NCBI RefSeq assembly: GCF_000687995.1
Contig: NZ_JIAC01000001.1
Coordinates: forward strand, 930,001 to 994,000
Reading direction: 5' to 3'
From: Selenomonas ruminantium AC2024
Lineage (GTDB): Bacteria > Bacillota > Negativicutes > Selenomonadales > Selenomonadaceae
DNA: 64,000 bases
In this document: one piece after another, positions 6,332 to 33,422 of the stretch
Position numbering within the stretch: the first letter of the stretch is position 1
How the letters are laid out: the number at the start of each line of letters is the position of its first letter
Translations under genes and position numbers: made by a program
The notes under the pieces: model-generated
What the model was told of the DNA's origin: nothing
Seen by the model: only the letters and a program-made list of their open reading frames with translations
Databases searched by the model: none

Positions 6332-7512
6332 TGGGCAAGTTCAAAAGAGCGTTTGTTATCGTTTTGGACAGCTACGGCATTGGCCAGGAACCGGATGCAG
6401 CAGACTTCGGCGATGGCGAGTGCAACACCTTAAAATCCATTGTGGGTTCTTCGAAATACGACACGCCGAATATGAAGAAGCTGGGCCTCTTTAACATTGA
6501 TGGTGTAGGCTGCGGTGAGCCGGTGGAAAAGCCGCTGGGTTCCTTTGCCCGCCTGCGTGAGCTTTCCCGCGGCAAGGATACGACCACGGGCCATTGGGAA
6601 ATCGCGGGCATCGTGTCCGAGCGTCCCATGCCGACCTATCCGGATGGCTTCCCCGCTGACCTCATTGAAAAGCTTGAAAAAGCCTTCGGCAAGAAGATCC
6701 TTTGCAACAAGCCGTACTCCGGCACGGCAGTCATCCATGACTATGGTCAGGAGCAGGAAAAGACTGGCGGTCTGATTGTCTACACTTCCGCAGACAGCGT
6801 ATTCCAGATTGCCGCCAATGAAGCGGATGTTCCCGTGGATGAACTCTATGGCTACTGCAAGACGGCACGCGAAATCCTGCAGGGTGAGCATGGTGTAGGC
6901 CGTGTCATTGCCCGTCCGTATGTGGGCAAGTTCCCGGACTATCAGCGCACTTCCCGCCGCCATGATTTCTCCCTTGACCCCACGGGCGATACCATGATGG
7001 ACGCTCTGCGCCGCAAGGGGCTCGATACCATTGGCGTAGGCAAGATTTCCGATATCTTTGCGGGCAGAAATGTCAGCCGTTCCTTAGGGATAAATAAGGA
7101 CAACGTAGATGGCATGGAAAAGACGCTCAAGGTGATGGATGAAGACTTTGAAGGTCTGTGCTTTGTAAATCTCGTGGACTTTGATATGCAGTATGGCCAT
7201 CGCCGCGATATTGACGGCTATGCAAATGCCGCAACAGTATTTGATAAGCAGCTTGGTGAATTCATGGCCAAGATGCGCGATGATGATGTGCTGATGATTA
7301 CGGCTGACCACGGTTGTGACCCCGGCGCTCCTGGCACCGACCACACCCGCGAATACATCCCCCTGCTGATTTACGGTAAGCATGTCAAAGAAGGCGTAAA
7401 TCTGGGCACGTATCCCACCTTTGCTATGATTGGCGCCACCATTTCCGACATGTTTGACTGTGACCTGAAAACCAAGGGCGAGAGCCTGCTCCCGCGCTTT
7501 ATTAAAGATTAA
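6331..7512 (+). CDS. deoB: Phosphopentomutase
   Basis: 393-residue metal-dependent mutase of the alkaline phosphatase superfamily. It converts (deoxy)ribose 1-phosphate from nucleoside phosphorylases to the 5-phosphate used by DeoC. The N-terminal metal site VLDSYGIGQEPDA, the phosphorylated threonine region KDTTTGHWEIAG, and the C-terminal metal ligands TADHGCDPGAPGTDHTRE are all seen. Length is standard. It overlaps the deoC stop and is followed 24 bases later by the pyrimidine nucleoside phosphorylase gene. Confidence 0.96.
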   Translation: MGKFKRAFVIVLDSYGIGQEPDAADFGDGECNTLKSIVGSSKYDTPNMKKLGLFNIDGVGCGEPVEKPLGSFARLRELSRGKDTTTGHWEIAGIVSERPMPTYPDGFPADLIEKLEKAFGKKILCNKPYSGTAVIHDYGQEQEKTGGLIVYTSADSVFQIAANEADVPVDELYGYCKTAREILQGEHGVGRVIARPYVGKFPDYQRTSRRHDFSLDPTGDTMMDALRRKGLDTIGVGKISDIFAGRNVSRSLGINKDNVDGMEKTLKVMDEDFEGLCFVNLVDFDMQYGHRRDIDGYANAATVFDKQLGEFMAKMRDDDVLMITADHGCDPGAPGTDHTREYIPLLIYGKHVKEGVNLGTYPTFAMIGATISDMFDCDLKTKGESLLPRFIKD

Positions 7513-7536
7513 ACTTTAGAAAAGAGGCTGTTTTCG

Positions 7537-8859
7537 ATGAGAATGTACGACCTGATTACCAAGAAAAAACACGGTGAGGTTCTGACGGATGAAGAAATCC
7601 AGTTCATGATTGATGGCTATGTCAAGGGTGAAATCCCCGACTACCAGATGTCTTCTATGCTGATGGCGATTTGGTTCAACGGCATGACGGACCATGAAAT
7701 CACCCAGCTGACGATGGTGATGGCAAAATCCGGCGATATGATTGACCTCTCCGCGATTGAAGGCCGTAAGGTCGACAAACATTCCACGGGCGGTGTCGGC
7801 GATAAGACGACCCTGATTGTTGGCCCGATTGTCGCTGCCTGCGGCGGCAAGGTGGCCAAGATGAGCGGCCGCGGCCTCGGTCATACCGGCGGTACGGTGG
7901 ACAAGCTCGAATCCATCCCCGGTTACAAGACGGCCCTTGACCGCAAGGAATTCTTCGATACGGTCAATAAATGCGGTATCAGCCTGATTGGCCAGTCCGG
8001 CAATCTTGCGCCTGCCGACAAGAAACTCTATGCCCTGCGCGATGTAACGGCAACCGTTGATTGCATTCCTTTGATTGCCTCCTCCATCATGAGCAAGAAG
8101 CTGGCCGCAGGTTCTGACTGCATTCTGCTCGACGTTAAGACCGGCAGCGGCGCGTTCATGAAGACGCTCGATGATTCCATCAAACTTGCTCAGACCATGG
8201 TGGCTATCGGTGAAGGCGCAGGCCGCCGCACGGTAGCACTCATTACCGATATGGATACGCCGCTGGGCCTTGGCATCGGCAACAGCCTCGAAGTCATCGA
8301 ATCCATGGATGTTCTGAAAGGACATGGCCCGGCTGACCTCACGGAAGTATCCCTGCAGCTGGCCGCCAACATGCTCTATCTCGTGGGCAAGGGCGACCCG
8401 GATGAATGCCGCAAGCTGGCCGAAAAATCCATCGAAGATGGTTCTGCCTTTGAAACCTTCTGCACGATGGTCAAGGAACAGGGCGGCGACGACAGCGTAC
8501 TGCGCGATTACAGTAAGTTTGCTCAGGCACCGTTCAAGGCCGAAATCAAGGCTGAGGAAGACGGCTTCATCACGAAGATGAACGCTGAAGCCATCGGCGA
8601 AATGTCCGTTATCTTAGGCGCAGGCCGTGAAACGAAGGAAAGTGATATCGACTTCTCCGCCGGCCTTATGCTCCATAAGAAATACGGTGACGCGGTGAAG
8701 AAGGGCGACGTCCTCGTTACGCTCTATACGTCCAAGGAAGCAGCCCTTAAAGGTGCCGAAGACCTCTACCGCAAATCCGTGGTTATCGGCGCGGACGCTC
8801 CCGAAAAGAAACCGCTGGTTTATGCCCGCGTGGAAAAAGACCTGGTAGAGAAGTATTAA
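7537..8859 (+). CDS. pdp: Pyrimidine-nucleoside phosphorylase
   Basis: 440-residue phosphorylase releasing uracil or thymine and (deoxy)ribose 1-phosphate, which DeoB then isomerises. The phosphate-binding motif KHSTGGVGDKTTL, the GRGLGHTGGT signature and DVKTGSGAFMKT are clear. The length and motifs fit the Gram-positive Pdp type that takes both uridine and thymidine, rather than a strict DeoA. AAAGAGG precedes the ATG. A repeat element separates it from cdd. Confidence 0.95.
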   Translation: MRMYDLITKKKHGEVLTDEEIQFMIDGYVKGEIPDYQMSSMLMAIWFNGMTDHEITQLTMVMAKSGDMIDLSAIEGRKVDKHSTGGVGDKTTLIVGPIVAACGGKVAKMSGRGLGHTGGTVDKLESIPGYKTALDRKEFFDTVNKCGISLIGQSGNLAPADKKLYALRDVTATVDCIPLIASSIMSKKLAAGSDCILLDVKTGSGAFMKTLDDSIKLAQTMVAIGEGAGRRTVALITDMDTPLGLGIGNSLEVIESMDVLKGHGPADLTEVSLQLAANMLYLVGKGDPDECRKLAEKSIEDGSAFETFCTMVKEQGGDDSVLRDYSKFAQAPFKAEIKAEEDGFITKMNAEAIGEMSVILGAGRETKESDIDFSAGLMLHKKYGDAVKKGDVLVTLYTSKEAALKGAEDLYRKSVVIGADAPEKKPLVYARVEKDLVEKY

Positions 8860-21081: not shown

Positions 21082-22053
21082 ATGAAGCCAACGCTTAGAA
21101 TTATTCACTTGTTTTGCCGTCTGTTACAGCGGGAACGGCTTAACCGGGAAAATGTTATCGAGGAGTACAAAATCAATAGTCGTACCTTTGACCGCGATAT
21201 CAGCGATATTCGCAATGTGCTGTCGGAGCTGCATGCTCGGGACGAGCTTATTTATGACCGCAACGACAAATGTTACTATCTGTCTAGAGGCGGCCTGCAT
21301 GAGTTTACAGGCATGGATGTAATGGCTCTCTTGAAAGTGCTGTTGGGAAGCCGTGCATTGTGCCATGATGAAATGATGAGCATGGTTTGTGCCATTCGCT
21401 CACTTCTGCCTTATGATGATAGGAAAGCACTTTACCATGCCATCGAGGACGAACTGAAAAACTATATCGAACCGCTGCATGGGAAACATATACTGGAATT
21501 GCAGTGGAAAATCAATAAATCCATAATCAGCAAGCAAAAAATACAGATTATTTACACAAAGGCAGACGGAAAACGAATTGAACGGGATGTATTGCCTGTA
21601 AATATCGTATTTGCAGAGTTCTACTTTTACCTTGTGGCGTTCCGCGATGAATCCGAGTATGAGTATCCGGCATTTTTCCGCCTGGACCGTATAGAATCTG
21701 TCAAGGTGCTGGGCAAGGTGGGGGAAAATTCACTGTATACGAATTTCCGCTATAGCGATATGCGCCCAGCAGTGCAATTCATGTATGCGGGAGAACTCTT
21801 TGAAATCAAGCTGCGATGCAGAAAATCAGCACTGGAAGCTGTTTTGGACAGAGTACCGAAGTATGAGATTATACAGGAATTAGATGGCTGCGTCATAGTA
21901 AAAGTGACTGCATTTGGCGAAGGCTTTATCCGTTGGGCAGCCATGCAGGGCGAGAACGTAGAAATTCTTGCTCCGCAGGAATTGAGAACACGGATGAGCC
22001 AATGGTTCACGAAAGCGGCTGAAGTATATATGCAGGATGTAAAAGATGCATAA
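21082..22053 (+). CDS. WYL-domain transcriptional regulator
   Basis: 323 residues. An N-terminal winged-helix region (NREN VIEEYKINSRTFDRDISDIR) is typical of DeoR/YafY-like WYL proteins. The WYL domain lies around residues 160-230 (VNIVFAEFYFYLVAFRDE, then ALFRLDRI-type ending FFRLDRIESVKVLG), with a C-terminal WCX-like region. WYL domains sense nucleic-acid-like ligands and often control defence or phage genes. GGAGGTG precedes the ATG. It is transcribed in the same direction as the GTPase operon that starts 240 bases downstream. Confidence 0.85.
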   Translation: MKPTLRIIHLFCRLLQRERLNRENVIEEYKINSRTFDRDISDIRNVLSELHARDELIYDRNDKCYYLSRGGLHEFTGMDVMALLKVLLGSRALCHDEMMSMVCAIRSLLPYDDRKALYHAIEDELKNYIEPLHGKHILELQWKINKSIISKQKIQIIYTKADGKRIERDVLPVNIVFAEFYFYLVAFRDESEYEYPAFFRLDRIESVKVLGKVGENSLYTNFRYSDMRPAVQFMYAGELFEIKLRCRKSALEAVLDRVPKYEIIQELDGCVIVKVTAFGEGFIRWAAMQGENVEILAPQELRTRMSQWFTKAAEVYMQDVKDA

Positions 22054-22292: not shown

Positions 22293-24152
22293 ATGTCAGA
22301 GATTATAGGTATTGATTTTGGTACGGGTTCCCTGACAGCGGCAGTTGTAAAGGATGGCATCCCTGAATGTGTGAAGGATAGCGAGGGGAACACGGCTTTT
22401 TTTCCAGGAGATGGTGGTAAAGGTGTGGCTGCATGGGGAACAAAAGGTAAACCTAGTACGTATCTTTCTGCTGTAAGCAGTATTAAAAGAGAAGCTGTTA
22501 TTGGTGGCAAATATCCTTGGTTGGAAGGAAAAGTTTACTATCCCGTTACATTGCTCACAGATATGTTCAATGAGCTCAAAGTTTTGGGCGAATCATTTTT
22601 GGGCAGGACAATTTCACAGGTTGTGATTTGTCTGCCTGAGAGATTGCAGGGCAAGCAGACGGAAGTGGTCAACGAGGCTGCAGTTCGAGCGGGCTTCGAG
22701 CGGGTACAAATTATCGCGGATGGTGTAGCTGCTATGCATTATTATGCATATTGCAATCAAAACAGGGAGAATATCCTGATATGTGATGGAGGGGCAGGTA
22801 CTTTTAGCGTGACTTTGGGCAGTATCAAAGGGGGAGAGATAGAAAAGCTTTATGGCAATACGGAGATGTTTTTTGGGGGGCTGGATTTTGATACAAAAAT
22901 TGTAGACAGGTTGGCTAAAGAATTCGCTACTGAGTACGGCATAAGTCTGTATGGTCTTAAGGGGGCAATGCCACGTTTGTATAATGCGGCTGAAGATGCT
23001 CGAATTTCCCTTTCCAGTAAGCATGAAGCCGAAATTTATTTGCCTCAGCTTGCTGCTAAACGATCACAAATATTTGATTTGTGTAGAAAAATTGGCCAAG
23101 GGGAAATGTATGAACTGACTTATGGATACAGGCTGCTAATTTTAAATATGCTTAGGTCGCTTGATATAGGTATTCCTGTACAGCGGGTGCTGCTTACGGG
23201 GGGACTTTCATATATGCCTATGGTAGGAGACTGTATTCGCGAGGAATTTGGTAATGTGCCTGTGGAAGTTTTCCATGTTAAAGAGGCCCAAGCTATGGGG
23301 GCTGTTCTATATGGCACAGATATAGCAAGCAGGAAAGAAAGCAAATTTTCCGGGCCTAGGAATGCGTTTTTGGAAAAAACTGGTTATAAGAAAAAACTTT
23401 GTAAGATTTTGGTAACGGCGACTATGAGCGCAGGCAAGTCCACTTTCATCAATGCTCTCATAGGTGAAAAAGTGAGCAAGACAGAAAATATGGCCTGTAC
23501 TGACCGCATTCTTTCCTTTGCAAACTCAGGTGGAAAAATTTCTCGTACCTTTGAAAGTGAAGAGGTTGTGCTGGTGGGGTTCGGTGGAAAGTTGACAGAG
23601 TTTGATCTTGTTATCAAAGATTCCCCGGGGGTAAATTCTAGCATGGAAAGAAGTCATCGGGATATAACGAGGCGGGAGATAAAGCAGGGAGACTATGATT
23701 TGCTGGTTTATATCATCAATGCCTCGCAGATTGGGGTCAATGATGATAGCTACCATATGGAGTTTGTACGTGAGCATGCAATGGGAAAACCAGTGCTATT
23801 CCTGCTTAATAAGATAGATTGCTTAAATCCAGAAGAGGAAGATTTGAAGGAGATTATCAGAAGGGTTCGCAGGTATATTTCAAGCAAGGGGTTCAAGGCA
23901 CCGATGATTTGCCCTGTATCGGCTAAGGTCGGATTTGAAGCACTGAGTGATGAGGGAGAGTTAGAATTGGAAGATCAATTGGAAAGACGCAGATGTAAAC
24001 GTCTTTTCGAGACTTTTGGTATTCCTCAATATTATGCGCAGGAATTTTCAAAACATTGTACTGACTCCGAGGTTGAAAATCTACATACATTATCAGGCAT
24101 TAATTATGTGGCCATGATCATTATGGAACTATGCAAGGGAGGAAAAATTTGA
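22293..24152 (+). CDS. Hsp70-like ATPase fused to a dynamin-type GTPase domain
   Basis: 619 residues with two domains. Residues 1-340 are an Hsp70/actin-fold ATPase: IGIDFGTGSLTAAVV (phosphate 1), ICDGGAGTFSVTLG (phosphate 2), MFFGGLDFD and VLLTGGLSYMP (adenosine). Residues 365-619 are a GTPase: P-loop ATMSAGKST at 376-384, DSPG at 443-446, NKID at 506-509. The P-loop form with ATMSAGKSTF matches the dynamin-like partner gene directly downstream. No substrate-binding domain of a DnaK is present. AAAGGATTACAGGAG lies upstream of the ATG. The stop overlaps the next start (TGATG). Fusion of these two folds is unusual; see findings. Confidence 0.82.
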   Translation: MSEIIGIDFGTGSLTAAVVKDGIPECVKDSEGNTAFFPGDGGKGVAAWGTKGKPSTYLSAVSSIKREAVIGGKYPWLEGKVYYPVTLLTDMFNELKVLGESFLGRTISQVVICLPERLQGKQTEVVNEAAVRAGFERVQIIADGVAAMHYYAYCNQNRENILICDGGAGTFSVTLGSIKGGEIEKLYGNTEMFFGGLDFDTKIVDRLAKEFATEYGISLYGLKGAMPRLYNAAEDARISLSSKHEAEIYLPQLAAKRSQIFDLCRKIGQGEMYELTYGYRLLILNMLRSLDIGIPVQRVLLTGGLSYMPMVGDCIREEFGNVPVEVFHVKEAQAMGAVLYGTDIASRKESKFSGPRNAFLEKTGYKKKLCKILVTATMSAGKSTFINALIGEKVSKTENMACTDRILSFANSGGKISRTFESEEVVLVGFGGKLTEFDLVIKDSPGVNSSMERSHRDITRREIKQGDYDLLVYIINASQIGVNDDSYHMEFVREHAMGKPVLFLLNKIDCLNPEEEDLKEIIRRVRRYISSKGFKAPMICPVSAKVGFEALSDEGELELEDQLERRRCKRLFETFGIPQYYAQEFSKHCTDSEVENLHTLSGINYVAMIIMELCKGGKI

Positions 24153-26701
24153 TGGCAAAATTGTATGTTAAGTATAATCCCTATCGTTTACAAACAGAAA
24201 TTAGGATTAATGGCAATGCCATAGAAAAAGACAGCAGGCTGTACAAATATGTCAAGGACAAGCGTTTACAGGAATGGGTGGGGGATTTTCCAGAAGAATT
24301 GCGAAAAGCAGTCAACACTGTAGATTTTGATATAAAATTTCACGGCATGGAAATGGATTGGGATGATTTTGAAGATGCCTTTCATCAGGCAGTGGAGAGA
24401 GGTGTTATAAAGCCGCCTGCTATGGAATTCATCGCAGGGAAGTCTCAGAAAAACATCGTGGAGAAATTGACAAAGATTTTTGATGATTTGCGAGATGAGA
24501 ATGCTCCTGTAGAGGCATTCAAAGATGAAGCTCTGAAAAAATCATTTGATAATGTGAAGAATGCTGTATTTCCTATCAATGTCATTGCTACGATGAGCTC
24601 TGGAAAATCTACACTAATCAATGCCTTGTTATCAAGGAAGATGATGCCATCTAAAAATGAGGCTTGCACAGCCACCGTAACCCGAATAACCGATAATGAC
24701 AGAGATGATTTTCAAGGAATTGCATACGATAGAGAGGGAAATATCATCTCAAAAATAGAGAATATAGCCTATGAGAATATGGTGGAGCTGAATGAAGATC
24801 CTAAAGTGCAAGAAATTGCCATATCCGGCAATATCCCTTTTATCGATGCCAACACAACGGCTTTGCGTTTAGTGGATACACCGGGACCAAATAATTCACA
24901 GAATCAAGCCCATAAAAATACAACATATAGAGCTGTAGAAAGTGATGCAAACAATTTAATACTGTATGTGTTGAACGGGACGCAACTGGCTACCAATGAT
25001 GATGATCATCTACTCAATCATGTGGCAGAGAAAATCCGTACCGGAGGAAAATTGATGCGGGACAGATTTTTGTTTGCCATAAACCGCATGGATGATTTCA
25101 ACCCGGAGGAAGAGAATATCGAATCTGCCATTGAGAAGGCAAGGACTTACTTAGTTAATCATGGTATAGAGAATCCGCAGATTTTCCCATGTTCTGCTTA
25201 TACAGCCTTGAATATTCGCACATATCTCAGGGATATAGATCCTGCTAAGTTAACATTGGATGATATGGATAACCTTCCTAATGCAGCTTTGGATACTATT
25301 AGCAAAATGAGACGGTTTAGGAAGCATGAATCCATGCACTTAGAAGCATACAGTAATTTGTCTCCTATAGCCAAGCGGGAACTGAATGCTGAATTAGCTG
25401 CTGCTTTAGATAGTAAAGACAGCAAAGGGCAAGTGTTAATCCACTGTGGCATACGCTCTATAGAGTCTGCCATCATCGCCTATGTGAAAAAATATGCTAT
25501 GACTAAAAAAATCAAGGATCTGGTAGAAACTTTTCAAGGCGTATTGGAAGCCAGTGAAGTCCTGGCAAAAGTCAAGGCAACGGTGGCTACGGATGAAAAT
25601 GCACTAAGGGAAATTAATGAGCGTGCGAAGATTATTCAGGCGCGTATAGATGACGGCAAAGAAGCACAAAAATTCAAAGCTAAGATAAATGCTTTCAATC
25701 CGATGAAATCTATAGAGGAGAAAACCGAGGAGTTGCAGGATAAGATAGAGGACGAGATTATTCAAATTTTTAGAAGATATGATGATGTTATTGAAAGTAA
25801 GAGTGAGGCTGTGCGGCTGGTAAATCAGTTCACGGATATGGCATCCAATACTATGGCTAAATTGGCAGCTGAACTGGAAACCATCATCAATCGCGAATTG
25901 GTAGAAACTGGCGAAGGACTGCTATGGGAATACCAGGAGAAGCTCAATCGCTTCGATAAGGAGGCTCAAGTAGAGGCGTTAGACTTTGATACAGCATCCC
26001 TGGTGAAGGACGGTTTGATGAACCTTCGGGAGAGCATCAATGCTTGGCGCTCCGATTCCTTTGCTATGGAAAAAGCGGAGGCCATAGGTGAGACTACCAT
26101 AGAAGAAGAGACTTATCATGAGAAGATAGGCACTAAAAAGGAAGATGTCATAGTGGGATCGCATGAGGAAGAAGTGGGGACACGCCAGGTAAAGTCAGGT
26201 TCTCATCAAGTAGAGCGCACTAGAAGAGTGAAGAATCCCGACAAGCAGGGGTGGAAATTTTTGCTGTTCTGGCGGGATGATTATGTGGATGAAACGTATT
26301 ATGTAAATGTGGATGATTATCGCACAGAGAAAGTATACAAGACGGTGCTTGATTATGAGACAGTAGAAAGAGATGTTTTTGAGGAGCGTACTAGAACTAC
26401 CGAGAAGTTCCGTGCAGATAAGGATAAGATACAGGCAGATCTTCTGGCAAAATATCAGCAAAAGCTGGGAGAGAGCATTAAAAAATCACTTGGTTACGCT
26501 GAGGAACAGATAGACGGTATGAAGAAGCAGTTTTCTAATAGCTTTGATGAATTAGATAGACGTATTGGCGAAAAGTATAAGGAAATTAAGGCTTGCACGG
26601 TCGACCAGAAAACAAGAAAAGAAGAACTTGAAAAGAATAAGAAAATCATAAAATGGATTGAGGCCAATATTGCTGAACTGAACGGTATTTTAGATGTTTA
26701 G
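24152..26701 (+). CDS. Large dynamin-like GTPase
   Basis: 849 residues from the ATG at 24152, which overlaps the stop of the preceding gene and has AAGGGAGG nine bases upstream. The P-loop is ATMSSGKST at 146-154; RLVDTPGPNNS (G3) and NRMDDF (G4) follow. A long helical stalk (about 450-640) precedes a charged C-terminal domain with alternating strands (EEVGTRQVKSGSHQVERTRR, then DDYVDETYYVNVDDYRTEKV) and a coiled-coil end. Dynamin-like proteins remodel or tether membranes. Pairing with a second GTPase as here is common for bacterial dynamins, and heteromeric action with the Hsp70 fusion is likely. Confidence 0.82.
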   Translation: MAKLYVKYNPYRLQTEIRINGNAIEKDSRLYKYVKDKRLQEWVGDFPEELRKAVNTVDFDIKFHGMEMDWDDFEDAFHQAVERGVIKPPAMEFIAGKSQKNIVEKLTKIFDDLRDENAPVEAFKDEALKKSFDNVKNAVFPINVIATMSSGKSTLINALLSRKMMPSKNEACTATVTRITDNDRDDFQGIAYDREGNIISKIENIAYENMVELNEDPKVQEIAISGNIPFIDANTTALRLVDTPGPNNSQNQAHKNTTYRAVESDANNLILYVLNGTQLATNDDDHLLNHVAEKIRTGGKLMRDRFLFAINRMDDFNPEEENIESAIEKARTYLVNHGIENPQIFPCSAYTALNIRTYLRDIDPAKLTLDDMDNLPNAALDTISKMRRFRKHESMHLEAYSNLSPIAKRELNAELAAALDSKDSKGQVLIHCGIRSIESAIIAYVKKYAMTKKIKDLVETFQGVLEASEVLAKVKATVATDENALREINERAKIIQARIDDGKEAQKFKAKINAFNPMKSIEEKTEELQDKIEDEIIQIFRRYDDVIESKSEAVRLVNQFTDMASNTMAKLAAELETIINRELVETGEGLLWEYQEKLNRFDKEAQVEALDFDTASLVKDGLMNLRESINAWRSDSFAMEKAEAIGETTIEEETYHEKIGTKKEDVIVGSHEEEVGTRQVKSGSHQVERTRRVKNPDKQGWKFLLFWRDDYVDETYYVNVDDYRTEKVYKTVLDYETVERDVFEERTRTTEKFRADKDKIQADLLAKYQQKLGESIKKSLGYAEEQIDGMKKQFSNSFDELDRRIGEKYKEIKACTVDQKTRKEELEKNKKIIKWIEANIAELNGILDV

Positions 26702-26712
26702 GAGGGTGAGAT

Positions 26713-27375
26713 ATGCATGATTCGGTAAGGACTTGTATTGCCAATGGTGACATAGAGGGCTTGAAATATATTTTCAAGGATGCTTTGGATGTGGATCCCA
26801 CCTTTGCAAAATATCAGGATGATTACAATCAAGTGTTAAAGGCTGGGTTATTTGAGTCACATCAGGTACTGTCCAGCTCCAAGGAAAGTTCTACTCAGTG
26901 GGATAAGGCTTATTGGAAGAGATTAAAGAAGGATTTATTAAAGAACTTTTCCAAAGAACGTGTAGACCATATGCGAAAAGTGGCTCAAGTGATATATGCG
27001 GATGATATAAGCAGAAAAGAGGAGACTTCTGAGAGTGCAGTTGATGAGCACCAGGTTTTGACAAAAGCGGAGCTACAGCCCAAACCTGTCGAAATAGCTT
27101 CGGCTGTGTCCAAAGTTGTGCAACCGAAAGAATCCAAGGAAGAATACGAAAGACGCATACAAAAAGAACTGGCAGAGGATAGAAAGAAATACGCATCAGT
27201 CAGTCCTATTCCACGCATCGAGGGGCCAGAGCTAAAAAAAAAACAGTCTCGTCCAATCAGTCGAACACCATCGGGAAAAAATCAGGCAAAGAGCAAGGAG
27301 AATCTGGAGAAAATTGTTTTGCCGATAATAGGTGCATTGGCGATATTGTTGATTCTGTTGATACTGTTGCGATAA
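26713..27375 (+). CDS. Tail-anchored membrane protein of the GTPase operon (frame continues after a shift)
   Basis: 220 residues in the zero frame. A helical N-terminal domain (about 1-100), a charged linker and a single hydrophobic helix at the very C-terminus (IVLPIIGALAILLILLILLR). An A10 run at 27234-27243 lies in the linker. One frame back (-1), translation stays open across the stop for a further 100 codons to 27683, so the natural product may be longer (next entry). GGAGGGTGAG precedes the ATG. Not recognised as a family. It could anchor the two GTPases to the membrane. Confidence 0.7.
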   Translation: MHDSVRTCIANGDIEGLKYIFKDALDVDPTFAKYQDDYNQVLKAGLFESHQVLSSSKESSTQWDKAYWKRLKKDLLKNFSKERVDHMRKVAQVIYADDISRKEETSESAVDEHQVLTKAELQPKPVEIASAVSKVVQPKESKEEYERRIQKELAEDRKKYASVSPIPRIEGPELKKKQSRPISRTPSGKNQAKSKENLEKIVLPIIGALAILLILLILLR

Positions 27376-27683
27376 AGCCGTCTAGAACGAAAAGCGTAGC
27401 TTGGCGAACTGTATTAATTATTAATCCTGAGGAAAAGTACTTCTTATCGGAGGGGAGTAAACTGCTAAAAAAACATTCTAACAACAGGGAGGCTGTTTAT
27501 GAGCTCACAGAAGACTTGTACTTTAAAGATCGTGGCTGGGAAAGGATAAAAGGTTATTCGCCACAGGGATTTGCTATTTATATGCAAAGTTATGAAGGGC
27601 ATCCAACGGGCTATTATAAGCTTGAGATAGCAGGAAAAAAGAAAAGATTCTATCGCAGATTTGCGGGAGGTGGTGGTTTATGA
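27376..27683 (+). pseudogene. Orphan reading frame continuing the membrane protein (frameshift, recoding or sequence error)
   Basis: No usable start codon lies at its beginning, yet the frame is open from at least 27244 and reads like a real domain: PEEKYFLSEGSKLLKKHSNN, YELTEDLYFKDRGWERIKGY, GFAIYMQSYEGHPTGYYKLE. Its TGA at 27681-27683 overlaps the ATG of the next gene (ATGA at 27680), the layout of translationally coupled neighbours. It is reached from the upstream gene by a -1 shift, either at the A10 run or near its stop codon. It could be a true recoded fusion, a recent inactivating indel, or an assembly error. Confidence 0.6.
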
Positions 27684-30600
27684 AGTGGAATGGGTTTGAT
27701 AGTAAGATGGCGGAGGTAAATAAAGAGATTTTTTTGCATGAAGAGATGGGAAAAAAGCAACTGCCGTTAGTGAATGAAAATCAGATCACAATAGAACCCA
27801 AGTTAGATGATTCGCAGAAAGAAAAGCATATTGAACAGTTATCATTGCAAGAATATGAACAGTTTGATCGCTTGACTATTTTGCAGAATAACCTTGCCAA
27901 TTGCTTGAAAATTATTGATGATGAAGTGATGAAGGGGTATTTGGCAAAACTTGATAGTTTGAAGATTGTGGATGCAGATGCAGAGGCTTTAGCAAAACTT
28001 AATCAGATTCAGTTTTTCCGCATTGATAAGCTGGCATATCAAGCGGAGGAATTCTCATTGCATAATCTGGCAACTTTGTATCGGGTATTGAGTGATAAGC
28101 CGTGCACTTTGGTGTTGATGGTAAAAAGCGATGGCATAACGGTGGAATTTTTCTTGGGAGTGAGACCCAAATCTGCTATTCACGCTGCTGGTACCATGAA
28201 ATGTATGCTGGAGGACAGTCTCAAAGGTCTTTTCCCCGGTAGCTGCACCTCGGCTTATTTGGAAGAGGCTTTGCAGAAACAAATGGAAAACATCTCCATA
28301 GGAGCCATTTCTAGTGTTACTTGCATAGCTGATTTTCGCCAGAATGAGGAGGGATTGAGCGATAGACGTTTTGTGCAGGGGGTAGAGAAATTCATTGATA
28401 GCATGAAGGGGAAGAGCTATCAGGCGTTTTTCGTTGCAGAGAATGCAAGCTATGACTATCTTGCGGAAACGCGGAGAGGCTATGAAAGCATTGGTACGCA
28501 AATATCCCCCTTTGTCAATATGCAGATGAATTTTTCATTAAACGATTCTGATGCTGAGGCAAATGCTAATAGCAGTGGTAAAACCATAACACTTTCGCAA
28601 AACAAAGGGGTGGGAAAAACTGTAAATGATGGTATTACCCTGTCAAAGAATATCGAAAAAAATTTTGGAACGAATACTTCTATTACTGTAGGGGAAAATA
28701 AATCTGTGGCTGTTGCTCACACATATACATCTGGGGCAGCCGATGGGGTGAATGAGTCTACAGCAGATGCTCACAGCGAGAGCACTAATACGACAGATGG
28801 TTCTACAGTGGGGGCGGGGGCTTTTTATGGTGTGGGTGTAAGTTACAGTAAAAATCACAGCGAAGGCAAAGGCAGCAGTGATACTCATACTGTCACCAAA
28901 GGCACTAGCCATACGATATCTGAGTCTCAATCCATTTCGCGCACATTGACTCATGGTCTAAGTACATCAAAAACAGTGGGGGAAAGTAGCGGTATCAGCG
29001 AAGGAGAAGGTACGGCTAGAAATTTTGGGATTGCTATTAATGATACTGAGACGATAGGACGGAGCGAGGCTGTTACCTTGACCGATTCCTTGACGATTAC
29101 ATCCACCTTGGGAAAAAGTCAAGGAATCACTCTAGGGGCAGAAAATAAAACCTTCGTTGCGATTGCCAAGCGGCTGGAAAAGCAGCTTCAGCGCCTAGAG
29201 GAGTGCGAGAGCATGGGGATGTGGAATTTTGCTGCTTACTTCGTGGGGGAAAGCTCAGCTGAGACGGAAATGGCGGCTAATATCTATCGTTCCGTGGTTT
29301 CTGGTAAAGGGAGTGGGATTGAGCGATCGGCCATCAATACCTGGAACGATGAACAATCCTTAGTGCAACTGGCACCATATATCAAGAATTTCTTGCATCC
29401 TGTGTTCGAGTATCAAGGTTTTGACTACGAGGGAGAACGTTGTGTAAAAGTGACTCCTGCTGTTTTAGTGAGTACTGGAGAGTTGGCAATCCATATGGGA
29501 CTGCCTCATACTTCAGTGAAGGGACTCCCTGTGGTCAACCATGCAGCTTTTGCAAGAGAGGTTTTGCATGGCTGGCAGACTGACAGTGGGCAGAAGAATA
29601 TGTTGCAAATTGGTCGTATTTTCCATATGGGTGAGCGGACAGAGACCGTGGTTGACCTGGACACAGAAAGCCTTGCTAGCCATACATTTGTAGCTGGTTC
29701 TACCGGGGCTGGAAAGAGCAATGTTGTTTGTCATATCATCAATGCTTTACAAAAACAGGGGAAGAAATTCTTGGTCATTGAGCCAGCCAAAGGAGAATAT
29801 CGTCATATGTTCCCCCAGACACGAATTCTTGGGACTAACCCCAGGCTAGGGGAAATGTTGCAACTTAATCCATTTGTATTCCCATCTTCCATCCATGTGC
29901 TTGAGCATATAGATAGATTGGTAGAGATATTCAATGTTTGTTGGCCTATGTATGCAGCTATGCCTGCTATTTTGAAAGAGGCTGTGGAGAGGGCTTATAC
30001 AAGATGCGGTTGGAATCTGTCCCTTTCGGAGAATAGCATTCATGAAGGGGTATATCCTGGCTTTGCCGATGTGCAGGAAGAGGTTAGGCAGATTTTGGCT
30101 GAAAGCGAGTACTCTGCGGACAATAAAAGTGACTATATAGGTTCCCTGGTCACCAGATTGCGTTCATTGACCAATGGCATAAACAGCCTTATCTTTTCTG
30201 CCAAAGGCATTTCCGATGAGGATCTTTTCAACGAGAATGTTATCGTTGATCTCAGTAGGATTGGATCTGCAGAAACTAAGTCCCTACTCATGGGATTATT
30301 GGTGCTCAAATTACAGGAACATCGTATGGAAGAACGTAGCAGGGGGGCTTCGCCGAACAACACCCTATTCCATGTCACTGTCTTAGAAGAGGCACATAAT
30401 CTCTTGAAGCGTACTAGCAGTGAGCAGACTGCCGAAGGAGCTAATCTTTTGGGAAAATCAGTGGAAATGTTGGCTAATTCCATAGCAGAGATGCGTACCT
30501 ATGGCGAGGGCTTTATCATCGCTGACCAATCACCGGGGCTTTTGGATTTGTCAGTTATTCGCAATACGAACACAAAAATCATCCTGCGTTTGCCGGAACT

Positions 30601-31219
30601 ATCTGACCGTGAATTAGTAGGAGCAGCTGCTGGATTAAATGCGTCACAGATTGAAGAAATCGTGAAGCTGGAAAAAGGCGTAGCAGCGGTGAGTCAAATT
30701 GATTGGTTGGAACCCGTTCTTTGTCAGATTCCACTTTATGAGCCGCCAAAGACTATTGATGAAAAGCAGAAAGTAGAGATAAAGGATTTGGTTAAAATAG
30801 AGGATCAATTGTTGGACGCTATCAGGAATAATGGTATTGGCGGTTCTAAATTACGAAAAGCTTTGCTTAACATGAAGACTGAGATTCTGTGTTCACCATT
30901 GAGGGGGGCTTTGAAGGCTGAATGCTTGATGTATGCAAAAAGTGGAAATGCTTCAAATTGGCAGTACTTTTTGTTTGAGTTTTTTGATGCACAAAAAGCT
31001 CTTAATCATGCTAAATCTTGTGGGGAAATGAATTCTTGGTTGAAAACAGTAAAAGAAAAGCTAATACCTGCGTCATATGAACTTGCACCGCAACAAGTAG
31101 ACATTCTTTTAGGAATTGTATTGCGTGAGGCAGTTAAAAGAGACGGAAGTTACTTGAATATTTTTCTGAGGTTTACTGAAGAACACCGAAGCAAGGGTGG
31201 TGCGTTTGTCAATGGATGA
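27680..31219 (+). CDS. HerA/DUF87-type ATPase with Ser/Thr/Gly-rich insert
   Basis: 1179 residues. The N-terminal third is of unknown fold. Residues about 290-490 are a low-complexity tract rich in Ser, Thr, Gly and His (for example KGTSHTISESQSISRTLTHG). The C-terminal half is a hexameric-type pump ATPase: Walker A GSTGAGKS at 673-680, VIEPAKGEYRHMF just after it, Walker B VTVLEEAHNLL with E903-E904, and a later EMRTYGEGFIIADQSP arginine-finger-like region. This matches the HerA/FtsK/VirB4 division of DNA or protein pumps. It is coupled (ATGA) to the frame before and overlaps the nuclease gene after it. Confidence 0.85.
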   Translation: MKWNGFDSKMAEVNKEIFLHEEMGKKQLPLVNENQITIEPKLDDSQKEKHIEQLSLQEYEQFDRLTILQNNLANCLKIIDDEVMKGYLAKLDSLKIVDADAEALAKLNQIQFFRIDKLAYQAEEFSLHNLATLYRVLSDKPCTLVLMVKSDGITVEFFLGVRPKSAIHAAGTMKCMLEDSLKGLFPGSCTSAYLEEALQKQMENISIGAISSVTCIADFRQNEEGLSDRRFVQGVEKFIDSMKGKSYQAFFVAENASYDYLAETRRGYESIGTQISPFVNMQMNFSLNDSDAEANANSSGKTITLSQNKGVGKTVNDGITLSKNIEKNFGTNTSITVGENKSVAVAHTYTSGAADGVNESTADAHSESTNTTDGSTVGAGAFYGVGVSYSKNHSEGKGSSDTHTVTKGTSHTISESQSISRTLTHGLSTSKTVGESSGISEGEGTARNFGIAINDTETIGRSEAVTLTDSLTITSTLGKSQGITLGAENKTFVAIAKRLEKQLQRLEECESMGMWNFAAYFVGESSAETEMAANIYRSVVSGKGSGIERSAINTWNDEQSLVQLAPYIKNFLHPVFEYQGFDYEGERCVKVTPAVLVSTGELAIHMGLPHTSVKGLPVVNHAAFAREVLHGWQTDSGQKNMLQIGRIFHMGERTETVVDLDTESLASHTFVAGSTGAGKSNVVCHIINALQKQGKKFLVIEPAKGEYRHMFPQTRILGTNPRLGEMLQLNPFVFPSSIHVLEHIDRLVEIFNVCWPMYAAMPAILKEAVERAYTRCGWNLSLSENSIHEGVYPGFADVQEEVRQILAESEYSADNKSDYIGSLVTRLRSLTNGINSLIFSAKGISDEDLFNENVIVDLSRIGSAETKSLLMGLLVLKLQEHRMEERSRGASPNNTLFHVTVLEEAHNLLKRTSSEQTAEGANLLGKSVEMLANSIAEMRTYGEGFIIADQSPGLLDLSVIRNTNTKIILRLPELSDRELVGAAAGLNASQIEEIVKLEKGVAAVSQIDWLEPVLCQIPLYEPPKTIDEKQKVEIKDLVKIEDQLLDAIRNNGIGGSKLRKALLNMKTEILCSPLRGALKAECLMYAKSGNASNWQYFLFEFFDAQKALNHAKSCGEMNSWLKTVKEKLIPASYELAPQQVDILLGIVLREAVKRDGSYLNIFLRFTEEHRSKGGAFVNG

Positions 31220-31868
31220 GATAAATGAAAGTTCAGATGTTCAGGAAAATCATGGAGAGTTTGAAAGTTATCAGGAAATAGGCTCAGAAGGAGATATTTC
31301 TCAAGATGAGGCAGAAAATTATTGGGGAGAACAGTTAGAGTCAGCAGAAATAGAAAATCCTGATATCGAGACAGCGCCCTTCAGTACATATGAAGAGCGT
31401 TTGGCTCATGTGCCAAGGGAAAATTCGGATAGAGGCACATGGGAGGGTGAAAGAGGAGAAAGCGGCTATAGACCTGCAGACGGAGAAACCATAGAAGCTA
31501 TGAAAGAGCGTGGGGTAAGTGAAATCCCCTATCAGGATGCCATGGTGGATTTTAGCGGGGTGGCAGAGGCCACAGTGGAAATTGATAATATGACGGAGCA
31601 TCGTCTGGGCCGAGACGGAAATTTTGAGCAGTGTGATACGAAATTATCTGAAGTATGGAATAGAGAAAATCATGATGGCAGGGCTGACTGGACACCTCGC
31701 GATGTATCGGATTGGCGTCATGAGAATAATTACTCTTGGCATGAACGTAACGATATGAGAACTTGCGACCTTGTGCCTACAAAGATACATGAAGCTTGTA
31801 CCCATTTAGGTGGCGTGTCGGAATGTAAGAAGGCCAGCCAAGAAAAGGAGCGTATTTTTGATGATTAA
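31212..31868 (+). CDS. HNH-type nuclease effector (polymorphic-toxin-like)
   Basis: 218 residues from the ATG at 31212 (in-frame GTG codons lie at 31197 and 31200). The first 90 residues are acidic and low in structure. The C-terminus reads YSWHERNDMRTCDLVPTKIH and then EACTHLGGVSECKK, which follows the WH-x(n)-LVP-x-x-IH-x(n)-H-x-GG signature of HNH/endonuclease VII-fold toxin nucleases (LHH/WHH groups). It overlaps the ATPase gene by eight bases and the next gene by eight, so all three are coupled. A DNA-cutting effector neutralised by the downstream protein is inferred. Confidence 0.72.
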   Translation: MDEINESSDVQENHGEFESYQEIGSEGDISQDEAENYWGEQLESAEIENPDIETAPFSTYEERLAHVPRENSDRGTWEGERGESGYRPADGETIEAMKERGVSEIPYQDAMVDFSGVAEATVEIDNMTEHRLGRDGNFEQCDTKLSEVWNRENHDGRADWTPRDVSDWRHENNYSWHERNDMRTCDLVPTKIHEACTHLGGVSECKKASQEKERIFDD

Positions 31869-32238
31869 TCATAAGAAAGTCAGACTATGGGGGAGAGACC
31901 TGGATCTTGAAATACAATATGACTGCTATGCAGGTGAAGAAGTACTTCCTGTTCAGGAAGAGGCTTTAGAGAGTGTGTTGAATAATTGGCAGATTGTAGA
32001 AGATGCGAAGGCTTATGTTGTGAAATATATGCTGGAACGTGATGGTGATAAGATAGAGAATGCGAATAATCTTAATGTGTTTAAATATGTAATGCCACAA
32101 AATCTTTTTGTAGGGAGGAGCAAAGGAACCCCGTCGGTGTATTTAGTCTGTGCTTACAGATATAATGAGGATGATGGTTTAGTGGTGGAATTTGTAGATG
32201 CTGCTGTAAGACAGGTGGGTACACAAAGCATTATTTGA
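31861..32238 (+). CDS. Probable immunity protein (DUF6985-like)
   Basis: 125 residues. Starts INHKKVRLWGRDLDLEIQYD and ends YRYNEDDGLVVEFVDAAVRQ followed by VGTQSII. This ending resembles the family with a terminal G-x-x-V/I-x-F...I/V-G-x-Q-x-I pattern often found beside nucleases. The ATG at 31861 has AAGGAG ten bases upstream and overlaps the toxin stop. Position directly after an HNH effector is the main argument for an immunity role; the family assignment is tentative. Confidence 0.55.
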   Translation: MINHKKVRLWGRDLDLEIQYDCYAGEEVLPVQEEALESVLNNWQIVEDAKAYVVKYMLERDGDKIENANNLNVFKYVMPQNLFVGRSKGTPSVYLVCAYRYNEDDGLVVEFVDAAVRQVGTQSII

Positions 32239-32660: not shown

Positions 32661-33422
32661 ATGGCTTATTGTAAAGATGCAGATTTAGAGATTTTGGCTT
32701 CGGCGAGTGATGAAGATTTGCAAATACTAGTGGATTATCTTATAAAAGATAAGGATGGTAGCCCAAGGTTAACTGAAGAATTGACATTAACAGAAGTATA
32801 TAAAAATTATTCAGATAGACCAAGTATGTATTGGCAGGAAATTGCTGGGGAGTTGCAGCATTTTGGTGGAAATAGTATTGCTAATTTAGTTAGAAATATA
32901 TTTGGTAATGGTGAAGGAGTCCTGTATAGAGAAATTCTATGTGATGTTTGCGATAAGATGAAAGTAAATTATAATTATAAAGCTTCTATTGAAATAATAG
33001 AGATGAATTTATTGCAAAAAATTCTAATAGACGCTATTGATAAAATGAATAGTGAAGAATTAAAAAAGATAATAGATGAGTTGGATTTGAAGACAACTGA
33101 TTTTACCAAAGAAGCTTTGATCGCGGCATTACAAGCCGGTATATTGAAAGGGGGATTCTTCGCGTATCAGATAGCAGTAATAGTAGCTAATGCTGTAGCA
33201 AAGGCGATTCTTGGTAGAGGATTATCTTTAACAGCAAATGCAACAATAACAAGAGCCATGGGGGCATTGGCTGGACCTTTGGGAATTGCTTTGACTGCTT
33301 TATGGACTTTGGTAGATATTGCTGGGCCTGCATACAGGGTCACAATACCAGCGGTCGTACAAGTTGCATATATTCGTATGAAAACGAAAGAAATATTGCG
33401 CTTAGAAAGTGGACGGTCTTGA
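32661..33422 (+). CDS. YaaW-family protein (DUF3944)
   Basis: 253 residues. The opening DADLEILASASDEDLQILVD, the central YWQEIAGELQHFGGNSIANL and the ending AYRVTIPAVVQVAYIR match the YaaW family of E. coli as I remember it. A hydrophobic region around 165-225 (glycine and alanine-rich) may insert in a membrane. Family function is poorly known; it recurs in accessory regions beside membrane or toxin genes. AGAGGGGGCGGGGG precedes the ATG. A terminator follows at 33476-33502. Confidence 0.85.
   Translation: MAYCKDADLEILASASDEDLQILVDYLIKDKDGSPRLTEELTLTEVYKNYSDRPSMYWQEIAGELQHFGGNSIANLVRNIFGNGEGVLYREILCDVCDKMKVNYNYKASIEIIEMNLLQKILIDAIDKMNSEELKKIIDELDLKTTDFTKEALIAALQAGILKGGFFAYQIAVIVANAVAKAILGRGLSLTANATITRAMGALAGPLGIALTALWTLVDIAGPAYRVTIPAVVQVAYIRMKTKEILRLESGRS

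Follow-up and report, generated by a model that had tools for sequence, protein, structure and literature searches.

A 64,000-nucleotide stretch of the genome of Selenomonas ruminantium AC2024 (contig NZ_JIAC01000001.1, positions 930,001 to 994,000), referred to here as the window, encodes a single chain in which the nucleotide-binding domain (NBD) of an Hsp70 is fused to the G domain of a dynamin-type GTPase. This protein, A, is the first of two dynamin-like proteins (DLPs) in an operon and is therefore also called DLP1. The operon is ordered WYL regulator, DLP1, DLP2, tail-anchored protein (C), HerA-family ATPase (D), nuclease toxin, and putative immunity protein. The fusion had been noticed in a first reading of the sequence alone (the original prediction), which overlooked its setting, a cassette that also encodes a HerA-family ATPase and a polymorphic toxin with its immunity protein; this context changes the purpose of the fusion. 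The parts of A, in window coordinates, are:

22293..24152, + strand: A (DLP1), Hsp70 NBD fused to a dynamin-type G domain, 619 amino acids (aa), one uninterrupted open reading frame
22293..23327, + strand: Hsp70 NBD, residues 1-345 (Pfam HSP70; phmmer match to DnaK 2v7y)
23328..23399, + strand: variable linker, residues 346-369 (low predicted local distance difference test score, pLDDT; high ratio of nonsynonymous to synonymous substitution rates, dN/dS)
23400..24149, + strand: dynamin-type G domain, residues 370-619, without a long stalk (Dynamin_N/MMR_HSR1; G1-G5 motifs)

A single-chain Hsp70-dynamin fusion

Both halves of the intact 619-codon frame are recognizable. Pfam matched HSP70 at residues 78-341 (E=1.6e-37) and both Dynamin_N (1.7e-10) and MMR_HSR1 (1.9e-8) at residues 372-507, and phmmer matched residues 1-346 to DnaK (2v7y; 6.4e-34). 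We modeled the full chain with AlphaFold, a check that the original prediction had proposed (mean pLDDT 78, built from 25 aligned sequences). Modeled residues 1-350 match DnaK in Foldseek (5e-26) and superpose on it in VIA (Z ~32-33 over 333 residues, root-mean-square deviation 3.4 A); the VIA fold matches listed for A are Hsp70s. Hence, the first half has the actin-like NBD of an Hsp70. It has neither the conserved interdomain linker (the DnaK-type VLLLD is missing, and residues 350-366 are modeled at pLDDT <50) nor a match to the substrate-binding domain (SBD); after residue ~365 the chain runs into the G domain, which takes the place of the SBD as originally described. This G domain is 30% identical to that of the neighboring DLP2 family (E ~4e-26) and is followed in the model by short C-terminal helices only, without the helical stalk/assembly region of dynamins.

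The original prediction had named its own counter-case, a frameshift that joins two separate genes at about residue 345-365, whose probability we now consider negligible. Three further full-length copies in two genera have the same junction (one in Selenomonas ND2010, genome G160, 92% identical; two in genome G122, 42% and 37% identical), which therefore excludes an artefact of this kind. Between A and its G160 homolog, dN/dS is 0.33 for the NBD and 0.11 for the G domain, with the highest value of the protein in the linker (0.59); purifying selection thus acts on both halves, and the fusion is a real single protein. Among 189 genomes of the order, we found it in Selenomonas and a single related genus only. 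A search of 398 genomes of the phylum added no further fusion, only DnaK-like matches over residues ~1-345; at 80% coverage, plasmids and phages yielded none, and viral contigs scanned with the fusion alignment gave Hsp70 matches only.

The nucleotide motifs, described earlier as complete in both folds, are so in the GTPase but only in part in the Hsp70 half. The G1 (TMSAGKST, 377), CT (402), DSPG (443), NKID (506), and SAK (543) motifs of A have counterparts that are unbroken in all DLP1s save for conservative changes, and the G1-G4 set is of the dynamin type. For the Hsp70 half, we mapped residues to DnaK numbering by alignment and compared the four fusion copies with 13 Hsp70 controls. D8, T11, D194, G196, G198, and the adenosine GG are present throughout the four copies. 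The catalytic residues E171, T199, D201, and R151, present in 13/13 controls, fare differently: the E171 position reads D, D, D, and P, the D201 position S, S, S, and N, R151 is missing in 4/4 copies, and T199 is kept in 2/4. The K70 position is uncertain, with a lysine adjoining that column in two copies. Canonical hydrolysis by an Hsp70 is unlikely without these residues. Judged by its residues, the Hsp70 half of A is thus unlikely to hydrolyze ATP in the canonical manner, and ATP binding possibly remains; an ATP-binding switch is a likelier role for it than an ATP-driven motor. The proposal of ATP-driven control of the GTPase is therefore unsupported, and the Hsp70 module is moreover dispensable among DLP1s, as described below.

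An operon that ends in an exchangeable toxin

The remaining genes of the operon, and features within their products, are:

21082..22053, + strand: WYL/WCX transcriptional regulator, first gene beside the cassette (Pfam WYL 6.5e-12, WCX 5.7e-9)
24152..26701, + strand: B (DLP2), full bacterial dynamin-like protein, 849 aa (Foldseek, VIA)
26090..26419, + strand: predicted hairpin of two very long strands in DLP2 (residues 647-756), its tip aromatic, WKFLLFWRD (AlphaFold secondary structure, sequence)
26713..27375, + strand: C, small protein with one C-terminal transmembrane helix, a tail anchor (transmembrane scan)
27680..31219, + strand: D, HerA/FtsK-family ATPase, 1179 aa (Pfam DUF87 4.9e-12; NCBIfam)
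28532..29179, + strand: S/T/G-rich middle region of D, residues 285-500 (T 15%, S 15%, G 12%; composition)
31197..31868, + strand: toxin, WHH/colicin-type DNase (Pfam WHH 2.1e-12, Colicin-DNase 1.2e-10)
31861..32238, + strand: putative immunity protein, weakly DUF6985-like (0.0015, under the cut-off; directly after the toxin, as elsewhere)

The product that begins at 24152, put forward originally as the likely partner of A, turned out to be a full bacterial dynamin-like protein, and its ATG shares one base with the TGA of A. Its predicted structure (pLDDT 83) combines a G domain with a long helical bundle; BDLP (2j69) is the top Foldseek match (E 4e-11), and VIA gives Z 17-18.6 to mitofusin, the Campylobacter DLP pair, and BDLP. 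A dynamin fold is accordingly predicted for DLP2. The hairpin, with ~48 residues per predicted strand, is a candidate membrane paddle. The shorter DLP2 of locus L122 (751 aa) seems to lack it. Homologs of C were found in L035, L036, L037, L122, L181, L213, and L214, and WYL genes also stand upstream of the cassette in L122, L182, L214, L236, and L238. D matches CedD (9.2e-22) and ser_rich_anae_1 (8.8e-25) in NCBIfam, and its nearest solved structures by sequence are HerA (4d2i, 2.3e-19) and other HerA/DUF87 proteins. The S/T/G-rich stretch recurs in D homologs, with varying length.

Toxin genes sit tightly behind D and often overlap it; in the window, the probable start is the ATG at 31212, within D. 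In loci with a DLP pair, the toxins that follow D are of the WHH/colicin DNase, HNH, GH-E, Endonuclea_NS_2, and papain-fold Gln-amidase types, and related D loci contribute LHH, WHH, and a weak RelA/SpoT match. The HNH of L036 was read by eye, with no Pfam match, and the 202-aa product after D in L186 belongs to no recognized family. SUKH and SUFU immunities were recognized in relatives, and in the window only the weak DUF6985 match. The family therefore has the exchangeable C-terminal toxin domains and, in most cases, the adjacent cognate immunity gene of polymorphic toxins.

Some of these toxins have N-termini in common although their C-termini are unrelated. The two toxins of L149, WHH and RelA/SpoT, align there with a score of 128 (shuffles at most 84, 0/1000), and those of L186 and L190 with a score of 94 (at most 65, 0/1000); the similarity between the window and L036 is marginal (2/1000 shuffles). 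A regular expression written for a shared N-terminal motif did not generalize: the motif lay N-terminally in 3/19 toxins, at a background of 5%. In addition, a simple scan found no transmembrane segment in the toxins. The window toxin is homologous to that of a cassette on a Lactococcus plasmid. Although these two toxins align, their immunity proteins gave no alignment above chance.

Two neighborhoods hold further genes beside their toxins. In L036 (615-2348), the HNH toxin and a SUKH gene are followed by a 578-aa frame in which an unrelated N-terminal part precedes a GTPase domain like that of EF-Tu; it may be a decoy or a copy of the target. In L149 (12877-14309), the toxin with the weak RelA/SpoT match precedes a protein that by eye resembles an HD-type alarmone hydrolase, as if immunity came from degrading the product of the toxin.

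Distribution and exchange of modules

A class-wide search with a D profile matched 48/380 genomes. We scanned the neighborhoods (40 fetched plus the earlier ones) with local profiles and counted 51 D loci. The order DLP1-DLP2-anchor-D is found in 12 whole-genome loci: the window, L035, L036, L037, L122, L181, L182, L184, L186, L190, L213, and L214. Among them, D is interrupted in L037 and no toxin was seen after D in L213; L122 comes from another family of the phylum, and the cassette is also present in other Negativicutes. An identical gene order is carried by plasmids Lactococcus pF27B, E. coli pTW10590_133, and Treponema pTS2, whose genes are publicly annotated as dynamin, dynamin, hypothetical, ATP-binding/DUF87, HNH nuclease, and SMI1/KNR4 or hypothetical. 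The cassette thus spans three phyla, and it is rare in E. coli (1/5426 genomes). In L037, the second G122 copy, an opposite-strand serine-recombinase gene (6992-8302) lies where D is cut short, which suggests an insertion in D.

A DLP gene or a gene for a ~1000-aa Hsp70-like protein lies at most three genes from D in 44/51 loci. DLPs make up 35 of the 285 genes near D versus 10 of 322 far from it, and Hsp70-like genes number 20 near versus 4 far. The ~1000-aa protein matches a DnaK profile with an hhalign probability of 97% and has weak matches to DnaK in the PDB; a profile comparison of these large proteins with the four fusions yielded nothing usable (probability 6%). In sister D loci (L147, L185, L187, L215, and others) it stands upstream of D, and downstream is a protein of 290-320 aa whose long hydrophobic N-terminus is rich in glycine and alanine; small coiled-coil proteins occur there as well. 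We came across no earlier description of this arrangement. SrfABC was considered as a precedent for an Hsp70 with a GTPase, and the L147 protein has no SrfB match in Pfam.

The N-terminal module of DLP1 is itself exchanged. It is an Hsp70 NBD in four copies and a helical-looking segment of ~160-190 aa, so judged from sequence, in L122, L181, L182, L184, L213, L214, and L236; L238 has an N-terminal region of its own, and L186, L190, and L237 have no module. In a G-domain tree, the Hsp70-type DLP1s form one clade (100/99), grouped with the helical-module DLP1s. On this tree, the Hsp70 module therefore joined DLP1 once.

Exchange also extends to whole cassettes at the genomic site. Genome G148 (L181) resembles the window closely in the WYL regulator (91% protein identity) and in the next gene after the cassette (96%), with only 37-50% identity from A to D, another N-module in DLP1, and a GH-E/SUFU toxin/immunity pair. 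In G157, a WYL regulator 88% identical to that of the window is followed by a different operon with an IetA-like AAA ATPase. Conserved flanks around such divergent contents indicate, from these comparisons, that the site exchanges whole cassettes. Beside the IetA-like ATPase, the G157 site (L233, 6184-11134) encodes a PDC-S29 candidate defense protein. Directly after the cassette in the window lies a JukA-family gene (32661-33422; PADLOC PDLC04113, E 1.1e-76), also kept by G160 and G148, and the neighboring genes tested gave no recognizable JukB partner.

Proposed function and known systems

We consider it probable that the cassette is a machine dedicated to its toxin. DLP1 and DLP2 would pair at the membrane as heterotypic dynamins, kept there with the tail-anchored C. 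With the HerA-family ring ATPase D, they would serve a single polymorphic toxin, the one whose gene lies at the operon's end; the producing cell would be protected by the immunity protein. The toxin N-terminus may be a docking tag for the machine, through which D would move or load the toxin at the expense of ATP, and the C-terminus the poison that is exchanged. The DLP pair would remodel or open the membrane by hydrolyzing GTP. We suggest that the Hsp70 half is an input module whose ligand is ATP, or a protein bound ATP-dependently, and which gates the GTPase through its conformation and not through rapid turnover of ATP; sister systems would fill its place with a helical domain or with a separate Hsp70-like protein. 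The basis of this proposal is comparative: the fusion, the conservation of the operon, the identity and swapping of toxins and immunities, the N-termini that some toxins have in common, and the exchange of DLP1 modules. Of the possible fates of the toxin, we prefer delivery to the outside, directed at kin and competitors; with such export to other cells included, the proposal as a whole falls slightly short of an even chance. Its fullest form, a new toxin-delivery machine of one- and two-membrane bacteria in which a dynamin pair opens the membrane without a protein channel, a HerA-family motor loads the toxin, and fused or separate Hsp70-type domains gate the GTPase, is rather unlikely to hold in every part.

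The hallmarks of polymorphic toxins favor delivery to other cells. Several observations weigh against it and favor action inside the cell: the cassette contains no secretion channel or outer-membrane component; it occurs both in cells with one membrane (Lactococcus) and in cells with two (E. coli, Treponema, Selenomonas), an unusual range for an exporter; several of the nearest solved HerA/DUF87 relatives of D come from anti-phage complexes; and the site resembles a defense hotspot, with the JukA-family gene at its flank and the IetA-like operon in G157. An intracellular, abortive anti-phage system is thus a possible, if doubtful, alternative. A DLP/HerA complex would sense infection or membrane damage and free or activate the toxin in the same cell; the immunity protein would prevent accidental self-killing, and the Hsp70 half would sense ATP or strip the immunity protein. 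Beyond the kinship of D, the WYL regulator and the JukA-family, IetA-like, and PDC-S29 genes are in line with it, as are the weak similarity of DLP1 G domains to LeoA/LeoBC, the plasmid-borne cassettes (one with an Abi gene nearby), and the lack of envelope-specific parts. However, we know of no HerA defense system that carries an immunity gene, which counts against this alternative. SUKH/SUFU immunities, common N-termini with swapped toxins, and whole-cassette exchange are moreover marks of polymorphic toxins (PMC3482391).

Bacterial DLPs bind, repair, or tether membranes, and paired ones tether them (PMC6104087), so that the cassette could instead be a stress-responsive device for membrane repair or vesicle release. 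The toxin would then be a passenger that stabilizes the cassette, with toxin and immunity serving as an addiction pair on plasmids. System-specific N-termini in some toxins and the tight, often overlapping placement of toxin genes behind D speak against a mere passenger, and we regard this explanation as improbable. Many bacterial dynamins are known, with the role of most unassigned. Here, a dynamin pair, together with a HerA-family motor and Hsp70-type domains, is linked to a specific cargo (a toxin and its antidote), and the gene set is small, occurs on natural plasmids, and is therefore testable. It would point either to a new way of moving toxins across membranes or to a means by which dynamins arm abortive defense. 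The natural swap of Hsp70, helical module, or nothing on DLP1, with the separate Hsp70-like partner, offers a ready set for studying how an ATP-binding domain might control a dynamin.

Like known bacterial DLP pairs (BDLP 2j69; Campylobacter DLP1/DLP2 5oxf/5owv; IniA), the cassette has two adjacent DLP genes with intact G motifs and a DLP2 with a G domain and helical bundle (VIA Z 15-18). Unlike them, its DLP1 has an Hsp70 NBD and no long stalk, its DLP2 is predicted to carry a very long beta hairpin, and a HerA-family ATPase and a toxin are linked. With the polymorphic toxin systems that use SUKH/SUFU immunity, it has in common swapped toxin domains, the kinds of immunity, common N-termini, and allelic exchange (PMC3482391); the trafficking modes given there are type VII secretion, type VI secretion, Photorhabdus virulence cassettes (PVC), and others, with no dynamins, and the word "dynamin" is absent from the text. 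The HerA-nuclease anti-phage systems (DUF4297-HerA, Sir2-HerA) likewise place a HerA/DUF87 ATPase beside an effector gene, often a nuclease, as found here; the cassette adds two dynamins, a membrane anchor, an immunity gene, and an exchangeable effector, and D differs from their HerA by an extra N-terminal part and the S/T/G-rich region. LeoABC (PADLOC) also has dynamin-like proteins, but the match is weak (2e-8) and confined to the GTPase part (67-237 of 559 and 87-265 of 601 model positions) rather than full length, and our operon includes a HerA-family ATPase and a toxin. No paper that joins dynamin, HerA, and polymorphic toxins, or that describes the cassette, was found in the open-license literature searched. 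The nearest published Hsp70-GTPase fusion is that of the CoCoNuT/NxD McrB systems, in which an Hsp70-like domain that keeps its SBD is fused to a McrB AAA-type GTPase (PMC11090510); A, in contrast, has a dynamin-type GTPase and the NBD only. The parts belong to known families, and it is their combination that the literature searched lacks.
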